The position numbers and the translations under genes are program-made. The notes under the pieces were generated by a model, which ran no database searches, was not told where the DNA came from, and was given only the letters and a program-made list of their open reading frames with translations. This document shows positions 37,391-45,052 of a stretch of 64,000 bases of DNA, in pieces (within the stretch, counting starts at the first letter, position 1; every line of letters begins with the position of its first letter). Location: positions 62,001 through 126,000 of the forward strand of contig CADCHE010000002.1 of assembly GCA_902801205.1 (NCBI GenBank), in the 5' to 3' direction. This DNA comes from an uncultured Bacteroidia bacterium (GTDB taxonomy: Bacteria > Bacteroidota > Bacteroidia > Bacteroidales > UBA932).

Positions 37391-37543
<153 letters not shown>

Positions 37544-39422: not shown

Positions 39423-39551
39423 ATGAACAAGAAGTGTGATTATGTGACTCCGGCTGTGGAGGAGTATATGCTTTTGGAGAGTGCAATCGTTATGGTAAGT
39501 GCCGGCGGAGGAAACCAAGGCGGTGGTGGAGATATCGATGATGAAGGCTAA
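39423..39551 (+). CDS. Small Gly-rich peptide at the head of the fimbrillin locus
   Basis: 42 residues, unrecognised as a named family. It starts MNKKCDYVTPAVEEYMLLES and ends in a glycine/aspartate tail with SAGGGNQGGGG then DIDDEG. Short proteins with a YxxPxxE...LE start and a Ser/Gly-rich end are frequently found in Bacteroidales near surface-protein genes, from general experience. There is no signal peptide. It lies 20 bases before the first lipoprotein gene, behind the only promoter seen, so it should be the first product of the operon. Confidence 0.65.
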   Translation: MNKKCDYVTPAVEEYMLLESAIVMVSAGGGNQGGGGDIDDEG

Positions 39552-39571: not shown

Positions 39572-40771
39572 ATGAAACAATTATATTCGTTAATCATTGC
39601 GGTGGCCCTTTCTCTGTTGTGCTTCTCCTGCCAGGAGGCAAAGCAGGACATGCCTGAGGATGACAACGGAATATCAAGCGTGGTCATGAGATTATCTCCA
39701 TTCGAAGGAGATGATGTTGAGACCAGGACTACATATTCCTACGACGCCTCCGCGAATAAGTTCACTTTCCTTTGGGCGGAAGGCGATGCCGTGGGAATTG
39801 TCTCTTCCGAGGGAAGCCAGCTAAAGTTCCCGATCAAGGAAGATTATTTCGGGCAAGTTGACGCTGAGTTCGACGGACGTGGTTTCGCTTTGGTTGCTGG
39901 TTCACGTTATTCCAGTTACACGCCCTTCGTGGCTGATTATGACCTGGATCCGTCCGCATTGCCTCTTGACTATACTGGGCAGGTCCAGAGTGGCGATGAT
40001 AGCACCTCTCATCTCGGCGATTATGGTTTTTCGGCTGCGATTGGTTCAGCTCCAAATTCCGGGATGCTCTATTTCACCTATTTGAACATAGGCTCTCCCC
40101 ATCGTTACAGAATGCCAGTCCTTCCTGGAACTTACTCAGGCTTGACTGTCTCGGTTGATGAGCCCAAGTATGTGACGAAAGGTACCATCAATCTGAATGC
40201 GGAAGACGATGCTTCATTGATCGCGATCAACCCTTCGGAAGTGTCTGAATCCATCCATCTTGATCTTGAGGAGACCACGATGGCGAGTGTCGGCAACCTG
40301 CGTTGTTGGATGATGGTGGCTCCGACCAATCTTACCGGAAAAACAATCAGGATGCGGCTCGAGTGTCCTGACGGAACCGCTTTATTATCAGCGGTTGCCG
40401 GAGCAGACTGCCCTGCCAATTACCGCAAGCTTTTCTCAGCCAAGACTTCCGTTTACCCTTCGGAGTGGGACGTGGACAGTAATGGAGGAAGCATTTCCAT
40501 CAGTCTGATCAACTCGACAGATCCCGTGGCAGTATCGGCTGCATCAGGCAATGATTGGATCACCAGTGCTGGCTCATCTACTGACGGACGAGTGACCACT
40601 TACACGTTCAATGTGGCAGAGAATACCGGCGGCGCCAGGGAAGGAACGGTTACTTTCACGGAGACGGAATCTAAAATCACCAATACGGTCCAGGTGCACC
40701 AGGGAAAGGCCGGTACGGTTATCGGCATTGGCGGCTGGACCACCGAAAACCATTCAGGGACGGCTAACTAA
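39572..40771 (+). CDS. Fimbrillin-like lipoprotein with C-terminal BACON-type domain
   Basis: Lipoprotein of 399 residues (lipobox CFSC, Cys20). After a short acidic linker, residues about 35-285 are beta-rich and contain TRTTYSYDASANKFTFLWAE and GDAVGIVS, the opening typical of fimbrillin-like domains. Residues about 298-380 fit a BACON domain (WDVDSNGGSISISLINS, then WITS and TVTFTETES). The tail GGWTTENHSGTAN is odd. BACON domains are thought to bind carbohydrate or mucin-like targets or act as spacers on the cell surface. The next gene starts 12 bases later, so it is co-transcribed with the M64-like protein. Confidence 0.78.
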   Translation: MKQLYSLIIAVALSLLCFSCQEAKQDMPEDDNGISSVVMRLSPFEGDDVETRTTYSYDASANKFTFLWAEGDAVGIVSSEGSQLKFPIKEDYFGQVDAEFDGRGFALVAGSRYSSYTPFVADYDLDPSALPLDYTGQVQSGDDSTSHLGDYGFSAAIGSAPNSGMLYFTYLNIGSPHRYRMPVLPGTYSGLTVSVDEPKYVTKGTINLNAEDDASLIAINPSEVSESIHLDLEETTMASVGNLRCWMMVAPTNLTGKTIRMRLECPDGTALLSAVAGADCPANYRKLFSAKTSVYPSEWDVDSNGGSISISLINSTDPVAVSAASGNDWITSAGSSTDGRVTTYTFNVAENTGGAREGTVTFTETESKITNTVQVHQGKAGTVIGIGGWTTENHSGTAN

Positions 40772-40783
40772 TCATATAAGATT

Positions 40784-43700
40784 ATGAAAACCAAAAAGAT
40801 ATTTTTATTTGGGGCAATCGTTGCTGCGACTGCACTGGCCTTTGGCTGCCGGATGGACGAGGGGTTTGAGGTTCCCGTTGAGGAGATGGTTCCCATTTCG
40901 ATGAGGGGAGATATCAACCAGCTCGCCGTCACCCGTGCTTCCGACAACGGTTTCGCCACCGGCGACCAGGTCGGAATCTGGGCAGTCAATTTTGCAGATG
41001 AGGATACTCCCGGCACGCTGACGCTCAAGGACAACCAGGCGACGAATGTCCGTTTCACGTTCGACGGGTCCTCCACGTGGACGCCGGACTACGACATCTA
41101 CTACAAGGACAAAAATACAAAGGTGGACATCTACGGAATCTATCCGTACACTTCCGCAATTTCATCGATAGAAGCCCAACCTTTTGAGGTTCAGGAAGAT
41201 CAGAGCACGATTTCCGCTCATGGCGCTATGGGTGGATATGAGGCCAGCGACTTCCTGTGGGCGAAGAGGGAGGCTGTTACTCCCAGCCCCAGCACGGTTC
41301 AGCTGCTCTTCCAGCATAAGATGAGCTGTGTGGTCGTGACACTCGAGAAGGGCACCGGTTTTGCGGACGGCGAATTTGAAGCGCTCAGCCAGTCCGTCCT
41401 GATCAACAATGTAAAGCGTTCAGCGCTGATCAACCTTGCTACCGGCGAAGTGACGGCGACAGGAGCGGTTTCCGCCCGCAGCACTGTCCCGGCCGCCTAC
41501 GAGAACGGCTTCCGGGCCATCGTGGTGCCACAGACGGTATCTTCTTCTTGCAGCCTGTTCTCGATCACACTGGGCGGTACGGCATACACTTACAGCGAAG
41601 GCTCTGCCTTTACTTATGTGGCCGGCAAGCAGCACAACTTCGCCGTGACAGTGGACAAGAAGGCTGACGGTGGTTACAATGTCACCGTCCAAACCACAAT
41701 TTCCGCCTGGACCAATGACAACTCCTCTCATGCGTTCGTCGCTAAGGAATATGTCGTCGTGAACGTCGAGACCCCCGGCACCCTGGGTGAGACGCTTACC
41801 GCCGCTGGTAAGAACCCCGATGCGATTAAGTACATCAAGGTACTGGGTACCGTCAATGCTGACGACTTCTACTATATGAGGGACCACATGGCTGTGCTTC
41901 AAGGGGTTAATATGCAGGAGACGAAGGTAGTGGAAGGGAAGATCCCGGATGGGGCACTATCGGGCAAATCATCGCTCAACAGTTTCTTTTTTCCAGATGG
42001 ACATCGTGACAATGTTATTACCGTTATAACTGGTCTTAATGATACACGTCTTTCAGGAGCTCTTGTTATTCCTGAAGGAGTTGAATCAGTCGGGGGAATG
42101 AATAATACTATGATATCGTCAATTACTTTCCCCTTATCTTTGAAGGAGATACAAGATGGTGCGTTTAATGGTTGCAAAGTCCTTTCGGGTAATCTCTCTT
42201 TCCCTGCAGGAATCGAAACAATCGGAAGAGCTGCTTTTTCAGGATGTAATAATATTTCGGGAGAATTAATTCTTCCAGAATCAGTTCGAAGTATCGGTGG
42301 AGGAGCCTTCAGAGATTGCCTCGGCTTAATTGGAAAATTGGTGATACCATCCTTTATTTCTGTTATCCACGCAGACACTTTTTATGGGTGTGGATTTACG
42401 TCTTTACAACTAAATAGTCGAATTAAAGAGATTGAGCATGGAGCATTCCAAAACTGTCCAATGAAAGGGGAACTTATATTACCAGAAGGAATAGAAAAAC
42501 TAGGTGGAGGCGCTTTCAAAAAAACTCAGTTTTCTGGAAATTTGGAACTTCCGGCATCACTCTATGATATTGACGGAGAGGTATTCGCTTTTTGTGGAAG
42601 GCTTTCAGGCGTAGTTGAGATTCCAGAATCAATAACTATGTTGAAAAATGGCCTATTTAGATCTTGTTCGCAATTAGAAGGTATCATATTGCCCTCATCA
42701 CTTTCTCTTATTGATGTTGCTGTTTTTAACGATTGCTTTGGTCTTAATTCGATAATATCATATGCGAAGAACCCACCTGTAATTGCTTCATACTCTAGTG
42801 ATTATAATGATCCTTTTAGAGGAGTGGCTAAAGATAATTTCACCGTTGAAGTCCCAGAATCAAGTGTAAATGAATACGCATACGCTTCAGGATGGAGGGA
42901 GTTCCAACGGATTGCTGCCCATCGAGATTTCTCCATTAGTTCTCGTCTTTACAGAGCATTAAACCCAGAGGAAAGCAGAAGTTTTATTCTTAGAGCAGAT
43001 TCCGGCGCATCCTGGAGAATCGAAGACAAGCCGGATTGGGTCTCTGTCATTCCTTCTTCTGGGACAGGCAAAACAGATGTGACTGTAATTGTCAATACAT
43101 TAGCTCAAGGCTCCGGCAATCGGACTGGAGAAGTCGTTTTCCTTTTGGAAGGTAAAGATTACCGTAGCACTTTGACGGTGGAGCAGTATGACTATGCTTA
43201 TGGGGATGGCTCGGTTCTTACTAAACAGACCCATACCAAGGGATTGGGTATTCCATTAGTCTTTCTTGGCGATTGCTACGATGCGGCGGATATTGCTTCT
43301 GGTTGCTATCTTGCAGATACAGAAGAAGCAATAGAATATTTCTTTGACATTGAACCCTACAAGTCCTACAAGGATTATTTCGATGTTTATATTGTGTTTG
43401 GCAAATCTGAGGAAAGTGGTGTCGGAAGCGACAATACCATCCGGGAGGCCAAATTCGGAACGCAGTATTCATTGACAGGAGGTGTACTTCAAAATAGTGG
43501 AACAGAAGCATTCAACTATGCCCGCAAAGCTGATCAAAACATGGACATTAGCAAGGGCTTGGTTGTCATGGTTCTTAATAGTTCCGATTATGGCGGAGTG
43601 ACCTATATGTGGAATGATGGTTCCGCTGTCGCTTTGTGCCCGAAGAGCGCGGATCCTTACCCCTATGATTTCAGAGGTCTGGTTCAGCATGAGGCTGGTG

Positions 43701-44200
43701 GCCACGGATTTGGTAAACTTGCTGACGAATACATCTATGTTAATGGTTTCATTGAGTCCTGTAAATGTGATAATAAGCATTTGAAAGAATTCCGAGCCGC
43801 TAAGGCTAATGGCTGGTACAAGAACCTTTCCGAGACTGCTAATCGCGACGAAGTCCCATGGAATCTCCTGATGTATCACCCGACATATTCAAACACCGTT
43901 GACATCTACGAGGGCGGCTTCTTCCATACCCGTGGCATCTTCCGCAGCGAGCCCAATAGCTGTATGAATAATAACATCCCGTACTACAGCGCCATCTCCC
44001 GCCAGGCCATTGTCGAGCGGATCATGGACTACGCCGGAGAACCGTTCAATCTTGACGACTTCTACGCTAACGACGCCGCCGCACTCAATACGAGAGCCAG
44101 CGTCGCCGCCTCTCCTGCCTGGGTCCCCAACCCCAGCTCTTCCTCAAATTACAAACATCAACATCCCATCATTATGGGCGATCATCCTGTTCTTAAATAA
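40784..44200 (+). CDS. Multidomain surface lipoprotein: fimbrillin-like, leucine-rich repeats, BACON-like, M64-like metallopeptidase
   Basis: 1138 residues, lipobox ending at Cys22. Order: a fimbrillin-like N-terminal region (about 40-335; VTRASDNGFATGDQVGIWAV at its start), BspA-type leucine-rich repeats (about 350-710; LVIPEGVESVGG, ELILPEGIEKLGGGAFKKT and similar), a BACON-like domain (about 730-803, PDWVSVIPSSGTGKT), then an M64 (IgA peptidase-like) domain (about 803-1103). The zinc motif is HEAGGH (His969, Glu970, His974) followed by LADEY (979-983), one residue longer than the usual HExxH. An FRSEPNSCMNN segment and PYYSAISRQAIVERIMDYAG follow as in M64. Likely an outer-surface adhesin-protease cleaving host or food proteins. 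The middle is AT-richer than both ends. Confidence 0.82.
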   Translation: MKTKKIFLFGAIVAATALAFGCRMDEGFEVPVEEMVPISMRGDINQLAVTRASDNGFATGDQVGIWAVNFADEDTPGTLTLKDNQATNVRFTFDGSSTWTPDYDIYYKDKNTKVDIYGIYPYTSAISSIEAQPFEVQEDQSTISAHGAMGGYEASDFLWAKREAVTPSPSTVQLLFQHKMSCVVVTLEKGTGFADGEFEALSQSVLINNVKRSALINLATGEVTATGAVSARSTVPAAYENGFRAIVVPQTVSSSCSLFSITLGGTAYTYSEGSAFTYVAGKQHNFAVTVDKKADGGYNVTVQTTISAWTNDNSSHAFVAKEYVVVNVETPGTLGETLTAAGKNPDAIKYIKVLGTVNADDFYYMRDHMAVLQGVNMQETKVVEGKIPDGALSGKSSLNSFFFPDGHRDNVITVITGLNDTRLSGALVIPEGVESVGGMNNTMISSITFPLSLKEIQDGAFNGCKVLSGNLSFPAGIETIGRAAFSGCNNISGELILPESVRSIGGGAFRDCLGLIGKLVIPSFISVIHADTFYGCGFTSLQLNSRIKEIEHGAFQNCPMKGELILPEGIEKLGGGAFKKTQFSGNLELPASLYDIDGEVFAFCGRLSGVVEIPESITMLKNGLFRSCSQLEGIILPSSLSLIDVAVFNDCFGLNSIISYAKNPPVIASYSSDYNDPFRGVAKDNFTVEVPESSVNEYAYASGWREFQRIAAHRDFSISSRLYRALNPEESRSFILRADSGASWRIEDKPDWVSVIPSSGTGKTDVTVIVNTLAQGSGNRTGEVVFLLEGKDYRSTLTVEQYDYAYGDGSVLTKQTHTKGLGIPLVFLGDCYDAADIASGCYLADTEEAIEYFFDIEPYKSYKDYFDVYIVFGKSEESGVGSDNTIREAKFGTQYSLTGGVLQNSGTEAFNYARKADQNMDISKGLVVMVLNSSDYGGVTYMWNDGSAVALCPKSADPYPYDFRGLVQHEAGGHGFGKLADEYIYVNGFIESCKCDNKHLKEFRAAKANGWYKNLSETANRDEVPWNLLMYHPTYSNTVDIYEGGFFHTRGIFRSEPNSCMNNNIPYYSAISRQAIVERIMDYAGEPFNLDDFYANDAAALNTRASVAASPAWVPNPSSSSNYKHQHPIIMGDHPVLK

Positions 44201-44206
44201 GTAGAA

Positions 44207-45052
44207 ATGAAAAAGATATTAACATCAATTTCGATACTATTTTTTTTAGTATCCTGCCAGAAACAGGATGCCATCAATGATCCAGGCTTGATGTCCATCC
44301 AATTCATCCATCCTTCGGCGGTGACGAGGGCGACGGAGACGGCATTTGAGTCGGGCGACAAAATCGGCCTTTACGTGGTTGAGACCCCGGCTCCGCTGCA
44401 GGTCAGCGGCAATTATGTCAACAACCTGCAGGCCACTTTCAACGGCTCGCAATGGACAGGAGATTCCGGCCTTCGCTGGCCTTCAACGGAAAGTGTTTGC
44501 GACATCTATGCCTACTATCCTTATATGGAGGTAAGCACGATTACTGCGGCGCCTTTCTCCGTGCTGGAGGATCAGTCGGATGGCTTTGGTGCTTGTGATT
44601 TCCTGTGGGGCAAGGCGGCTTCTGTGGCTTACACAACGAATGCGATTCCGGTGCAGTTCAACCACAAACTGTCCAAGATCACCTTGAAACTTGTCAAGAG
44701 TGAAAGCTACGTCGGAGACCTGCCTTCCGATGCGGTGTTCTATGTCCATAGCACCGTTCCGGACGCAACGGTAGACCTGACGACCGGTTCCGTGACCAAG
44801 GATCCTTACGGGACCGCCAGGACCATCACCTGCCACAAAGTTGACGATGAAACCTACGAGGCTGTCGTCATCCCGCAGCGCCTGAGTTCCCGGACCCCTC
44901 TCTTCGAGATGGTCGCCAATGGCGTTTCCTATCTGGTGGAGGGCTCCTTCAACTTCAAGCCCGGCATCAACTACACCTTCAGCGTTACGCTTAACACTTC
45001 CACCGAGTCCATCCGCATTGAGATCGGTGGTGAGATCGAGGACTGGAATTAG
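44207..45052 (+). CDS. Fimbrillin-family lipoprotein
   Basis: 281 residues with lipobox FLVSC (Cys17). The mature region is one fimbrillin-like unit: VTRATETAFESGDKIGLYVV near residue 38, YAYYPYME near residue 105, then ALEDQS-type and CDFLWGKA segments, and TFSVTLNTST towards the end. It resembles the N-terminal region of the large upstream protein and could be its pilus-type partner or an assembly/tip subunit. Starts 6 bases after that gene. Followed by two strong terminators, which closes the operon. Confidence 0.82.
   Translation: MKKILTSISILFFLVSCQKQDAINDPGLMSIQFIHPSAVTRATETAFESGDKIGLYVVETPAPLQVSGNYVNNLQATFNGSQWTGDSGLRWPSTESVCDIYAYYPYMEVSTITAAPFSVLEDQSDGFGACDFLWGKAASVAYTTNAIPVQFNHKLSKITLKLVKSESYVGDLPSDAVFYVHSTVPDATVDLTTGSVTKDPYGTARTITCHKVDDETYEAVVIPQRLSSRTPLFEMVANGVSYLVEGSFNFKPGINYTFSVTLNTSTESIRIEIGGEIEDWN

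Follow-up and report, generated by a model that had tools for sequence, protein, structure and literature searches.

The M64 peptidases closest to the domain described here are BF3526 (PDB 4df9/9qdi) and BACOVA_00663 (3p1v). The canonical motif of the family is HExxHxxxGxxD (PMC12402451, PMC12237041), and according to a 2025 survey HEXXHXXXGXXD is kept by proteins across the M64 clusters, except that two clusters have Glu in place of Asp and one lacks the residues; two of the clusters, CL-IV and CL-XII, consist wholly of Bacteroidia (PMC12402451). The igalysin ThomasA/IgAse of Thomasclavelia ramosa, also of M64, has the canonical motif and carries C-type-lectin-like, wrapping and all-beta domains (PMC12237041). 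Type V pilins are lipoproteins that are cleaved by a surface clostripain, and an extra C-terminal binding domain is frequent in tip pilins (PMC12632263). Here we analysed a stretch of 64,000 nucleotides (nt), called the window below, from an uncultured Bacteroidia bacterium of UBA932 (assembly GCA_902801205.1, contig CADCHE010000002.1, positions 62,001 to 126,000). One of its genes encodes a predicted lipoprotein, hereafter the fusion, in which a fimbrillin domain is followed by leucine-rich repeats (LRR), a BACON domain and an M64-like peptidase domain with the hexapeptide zinc motif HExxGH. The domain belongs to a distinct M64 clade in which nearly all members seen carry HExxGH, and we put the odds at about even (0.5) that the fusion is the tip-type subunit in a small set of type V-pilus-like lipoproteins that displays a metallopeptidase.

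Relatives of the fusion were collected by scanning genome contigs for the M64 domain, and the best 80 of 92 confirmed stretches gave 78 loci (L-numbers). In those loci 68 open reading frames (ORFs) of at least 1000 amino acids (aa) were complete; 57 were given starts by the lipobox rule, the 11 without one were dropped, and 40 of the 57 were aligned and Pfam-scanned together with the query, resulting in 41 proteins. A fusion-family alignment of 87 rows includes the query and one identical pair, and leaves out the rows of the canonical L001 and the partial L004:10267. The features of the fusion are:

40784..44200, + strand: fusion lipoprotein Mfa_like_1 - LRR_5 - BACON - M64-like peptidase, 1138 aa (ORF, Pfam, alignment)
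40847..40849, + strand: lipobox Cys22 (read from the sequence; Cys in 41/41 aligned rows, partly by construction because the relatives' starts were set using the lipobox rule)
40931..40939, + strand: T50-R51-A52, possible pilin maturation site [TS][RK][AV] (R/K in 41/41 fusion rows)
40931..41710, + strand: Mfa_like_1 (fimbrillin), residues 50-309 (Pfam 2.1e-54; fold matches 4k4k, 3ufi)
41699..41752, + strand: junction I306-Y323, like the C-terminal tails of upstream partners (alignment, by eye)
42104..42919, + strand: BspA-type leucine-rich repeats, approximately residues 441-712 (Pfam LRR_5 4.6e-38; region end from the model)
43010..43189, + strand: BACON, residues 743-802 (Pfam 7.4e-6; present in 39/41 proteins)
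43193..44068, + strand: M64-like metallopeptidase domain, residues 804-1095 (Pfam PF09471, M64 fold)
43688..43732, + strand: active-site segment H969-E-A-G-G-H974 ... D981-E-Y983 (HExxGH in 84/87 rows)
43760..43768, + strand: C993-K-C995, a Cys cluster of the fusion family (C993 in 83/87 rows)
43958..43966, + strand: Met-turn S1059-C1060-M1061 (M1061 87/87, S1059 87/87, C1060 84/87)

Mfa_like_1, LRR_5, BACON and Peptidase_M64 lie in this order within the fusion and each exceeds its Pfam cut-off, which bears out the domain order given in a preliminary description of this DNA. LRR_5 scored 130.4 bits against a cut-off of 27.7, with 4fs7 and 4gt6 as PDB relatives, and BACON (PF13004) was barely over its threshold (26.3 vs 25 bits). 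Some BACON domains serve as spacers, and we did not accept the domain as a proven glycan binder. PF09471 scored 58 bits vs a cut-off of 26, with E <= 0.01 in 41/41 proteins, so the M64 homology proposed for the C-terminal part was upheld; both sequence and fold assign it to the M64 catalytic fold. No M49 family was among the Pfam matches of the fusion (E <= 0.1), and NCBIfam gave nothing above its curated cut-off. At the level of sequence, Cys22 also sustains the lipoprotein status that had been proposed.

The zinc motif of the fusion is HEAGGHGFGKLAD, in which one extra residue lies between the two His and Lys replaces Gly. In contrast, BF3526 combines HExxHxxxGxxD with structural-site Cys that the fusion does not have, and its accessory domains are unlike those of the fusion. 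The domain is thus named here as an M64-homologous variant rather than a canonical igalysin. D981 was kept in 84/87 rows, Y983 in 80/87 and E982 in 87/87, and Asp as third ligand and the Met-turn were identified by alignment only. A second count of the Cys cluster gave C993 in 77/81 and C995 in 67/80 rows. HExxGH is missing from three rows (L078, L079 and L081), each the first gene of a tandem set; H974, D981 and C1060 are gone from them too, and they therefore look like non-catalytic paralogues. Each of these loci holds three fusion genes in tandem, of which the first is truncated by the locus edge and the second keeps all the zinc ligands. Four rows keep the zinc ligands without Tyr983, namely the third genes of the same three sets and the second copy in L013. 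HExxGH as a sequencing error was rejected, since 137 distinct segments carry it.

Among canonical M64s of the same phylum, HExxH was found in 29/29 examined. These were 28 of 30 fetched loci, from matches that existed in 70/395 genomes, plus the genome's own L001; the other two loci were a hexapeptide member (L083) and the query (L082). A sample from the order (L112-L131, of which L112 and L113 duplicate earlier loci) showed HExxGH in 18/20 loci and HExxH in L119 and L131. All 39 further chosen clade members, from 27 genomes and with 12 from one same-genus genome, carried HExxGH; five repeat earlier loci, leaving 34 new. When a tree of 72 rows was built with the motif columns excluded, hexapeptide proteins and canonical M64s split at 100/100, and the hexapeptide side also took in L119, L131 and two dead copies. 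The tree requires three motif-length changes, and a single origin of the hexapeptide was not rejected (p-AU, approximately unbiased test, 0.279). The Met-turn of the clade departs from the canonical one at the structural-zinc Cys positions and retains the Met. C993 and C1060 are further Cys of the fusion family, which may form a new metal site or a disulfide. A hexapeptide zinc motif in nearly all of an M64 branch was unexpected and goes unmentioned in section 7 of the survey; because the HExxGH branch passes the M64 model, the motif statement made there appears incomplete (PMC12402451). Tentatively, and a little short of an even call, we regard this as a large, seemingly undescribed Bacteroidales branch of M64 with HExxGH and without the structural-zinc Cys, one sub-branch of which would be mounted on a pilus tip, as a protease-tipped type V-like pilus. 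The branch is a natural experiment on how the M64 fold, which is assigned to the metzincin clan, accommodates one more residue in the zinc helix.

The order of domains in one chain had been described as singular, and this part of the preliminary description did not survive: the search for the identical order that it proposed, carried out as a domain scan of the 41 full-length proteins (E <= 0.01), found Mfa_like_1, LRR_5 and M64 in 41/41 and BACON in 39/41, a conserved family across many Bacteroidales. The fusion as unique was thus rejected, as relatives are common in Bacteroidales. Among the names in their record titles are Alistipes, Rikenellaceae, Muribaculaceae, Prevotella and two cultured relatives that hold the fusion, Bacteroides acidifaciens DSM 15896 (L059) and Phocaeicola faecicola AGMB03916 (L064); animal gut was the source of many, and the title of L060 names a bioreactor-type sample. 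A description of the fusion family was not found in the open-licence literature searched. The wider clade (E <= 1e-20) was present in 82/199 genomes of the window's family and in 15/393 of its order, and the near-full-score fusion type (at least 465 bits, frames of 1142-1200 aa) in 9/199 family genomes. Among the same-genus genomes listed, 3/19 had any clade member, and the fusion type was confined to the window's own. The distribution is patchy. One same-genus genome (G905) holds twelve hexapeptide M64 matches (loci L136-L147). A scan of viral contigs gave no confirmed relative. Two matching records from a phage collection were inspected, with 18 further records matching, and neither carried annotation, both being 'unverified' contigs from faeces (L134 has HExxGH, L135 HExxH); a phage or mobile origin was rejected on these grounds. 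Another hexapeptide relative (L004:10267-13005) has Redoxin in the same chain (Pfam 1.7e-6), and one more (L130:1-2427) has a weak Thioredoxin_8 below the cut-off. Redoxin- or thioredoxin-like domains beside a hexapeptide M64 domain could suit disulfide-rich targets.

The fusion gene stands between two other lipoprotein genes:

39572..40771, + strand: upstream lipoprotein; BACON is C-terminal, and the C-terminal tail is pilin-like (Pfam BACON 5.2e-7)
44207..45052, + strand: partner fimbrillin lipoprotein with a single Mfa_like_1 (Pfam 9.6e-56)

The intergenic gaps are 12 nt between the upstream lipoprotein and the fusion and 6 nt between the fusion and the partner, and the three genes were therefore read as one operon. 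Both neighbours had been anticipated: the Pfam match confirms the BACON lipoprotein, and the attached fimbrillin-like partner recurs among the relatives, with an Mfa gene or another fusion within 700 nt downstream of 85/86 fusion ORFs (Mfa gene 79, another fusion 6, neither 1; some of the 86 are truncated by the locus end). Upstream of the same ORFs we found Mfa in 29, a P0002-like gene in 12, another fusion in 6, none recognised in 21 and no room in 18. The 2.47 Mb genome has Mfa_like_1 matches only in the fusion and its downstream neighbour, and its one other M64 gene is canonical (L001, 444 aa). At the basic site, R/K was present in 41/41 fusions, 74/76 downstream and 26/27 upstream Mfa rows, with the window's partner counted among both downstream and upstream rows. 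Judged by eye, the C-terminal tails of upstream partners are alike across different folds and also resemble the Mfa-LRR junction of the fusion (I..W..D..SH.G.A.EY in the junction vs I..W..D..D.GG.AE in the tails), and the tail of the window's upstream lipoprotein is like the upstream Mfa tails of relatives. PDB matches of this lipoprotein to polyubiquitin were disregarded, as no stretch passed alone.

Like type V tip pilins, the fusion has a lipoprotein signal, a fimbrillin-fold N-terminus, a basic site before the fold at which cleavage is putative, an additional C-terminal part and pilin-like partner genes. Unlike them, its C-terminal part is a peptidase after LRR and BACON, and its genome is without Mfa2 and FimA matches. 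As a tip-type subunit, the fusion would be exported as a lipoprotein by its fimbrillin N-terminus and possibly matured at T-R51-A, and its fimbrillin domain might pair with the downstream single-domain fimbrillin and the upstream lipoprotein. Its C-terminus would bear the BspA repeats, BACON as a spacer or binding domain, and the M64-type catalytic domain, and such an assembly would project a metallopeptidase away from the cell. If so, a Bacteroidales pilus would carry an enzyme, beyond a mere binding domain. Several observations weigh against this. No match to PF08842 or PF06321 (the Mfa2 and FimA families) was found in the genome (E <= 0.001; other pilin families were not searched), which makes a complete fibre doubtful and, with a clostripain-family gene present in the same genome, leaves the odds about even. 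The R/K site and the common tails are mere sequence resemblance, 21/86 fusion ORFs are without a recognised upstream Mfa or P0002-like gene and 18 more lack room, and the fusion relatives are non-independent, having been picked for close similarity to the query from a set limited to the best 80. The peptidase domain does not have HExxHxxxGxxD, with one residue extra and Lys for Gly before the third ligand, and the three structural-zinc Cys of canonical M64s are absent; in the alignment the clade mostly has Ser or another residue at those positions. L119 and L131, both long branches within the clade, carry HExxH, and not every clade member is thus a hexapeptide protein. A doubtful but possible alternative is a surface peptidase without a pilus, in which Mfa is a lipid-anchored stalk and the neighbouring Mfa genes encode separate lipoproteins of a shared regulon. 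The unmatched Mfa2 and FimA would fit it, as would six wider-clade relatives that carry BACON, LRR, Big_2 or redoxin-like domains with Mfa unmatched, three of which (L125, L126 and L130) are truncated by the locus edge, with their N-termini outside the sequence. Against it stand the lone Mfa gene after 79/86 fusion ORFs and a basic site kept in fusions and Mfa partners alike.

The catalytic part of the tip-subunit reading draws on hexapeptide sites in other folds. In DPP III the HELLGH residues bind zinc, their mutation abolishes activity, and five residues lie in the helix turn (PMC3268031). HExxxH binds metal on a distorted helix in TldD (PMC5810440), and the tubulin carboxypeptidases TMCP likewise have HExxxH (PMC10499314). 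By analogy with these sites, peptidase activity of the fusion's M64 domain is plausible. The pentapeptide is found in some M49 members (PMC5805324), a precedent for a motif-length switch inside one family. DPP III (M49) and TldD share with the fusion a hexapeptide metal motif, HExxGH or HExxxH, on a helix, but they differ from it in fold and in the third ligand, which is Glu in DPP III, Cys in TldD and Asp here by alignment; the shared hexapeptide is taken as convergence. By analogy to BF3526, DPP III and TldD, H969, H974 and D981 would coordinate zinc, E970 would act as the base and Y983 would assist. That the extra residue instead disrupts the zinc site, leaving a domain that only binds, appears unlikely. 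Such a non-catalytic protein would agree with the fact that neither the canonical motif nor the structural-zinc Cys are kept, and the ligand-less first genes in the L078, L079 and L081 tandem sets indicate that non-catalytic copies exist. Yet H969, E970, H974, D981 and the Met of the Met-turn are nearly invariant, HExxGH in 39/39 chosen clade members is unexpected under drift, and HExxxH sites are catalytic elsewhere, as described above. A surface peptidase that acts on IgA, which the Pfam name would suggest, is very improbable: ThomasA differs from the fusion both in its motif and in its accessory domains, where the fusion has fimbrillin, LRR_5 and BACON, and an assignment by name was set aside as unsupported.

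One further ORF precedes the operon:

39423..39551, + strand: micro-ORF of 42 aa preceding the operon, of uncertain membership (20 nt lie between its end and the upstream lipoprotein gene)

Its N-terminus (Y-V-T-P-A-V-E) is like that of 41-57 aa ORFs before the operon in some relatives, and its Gly-rich end is unlike theirs. A Y-x-x-P type N-terminus was seen in such pre-operon ORFs of 13/64 relatives with room, picked by pattern and by eye (L014, L015, L019, L020, L022, L023, L027, L030, L034, L037, L038, L039 and L076). In most of the 13 the terminal tail is similar to the tails of upstream pilins, e.g. IGGWEDGGEYGGDAE. No signal peptide was evident in the micro-ORFs by eye, and NCBIfam gave no match on four of them. 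When micro-ORF tails were compared to upstream Mfa tails, 5/13 (L015, L019, L030, L034 and L076) were reached by 7-33/300 shuffles, counts that overstate because most of the ORFs were picked by a pattern requiring such a tail.

The Bacteroides promoter pattern TTTG-N18-22-TAnnTTTG has four matches in the window (13577, 17187, 35682 and 57813) vs 0.2 expected, none of which precedes the fusion operon. A tRNA-Gly gene at 37391-37464 extends into the beginning of a 99-nt direct duplicate whose copies match exactly (37445 and 37728; region to 37874), and the duplicate contains a terminator-like hairpin and GC-rich repeats.
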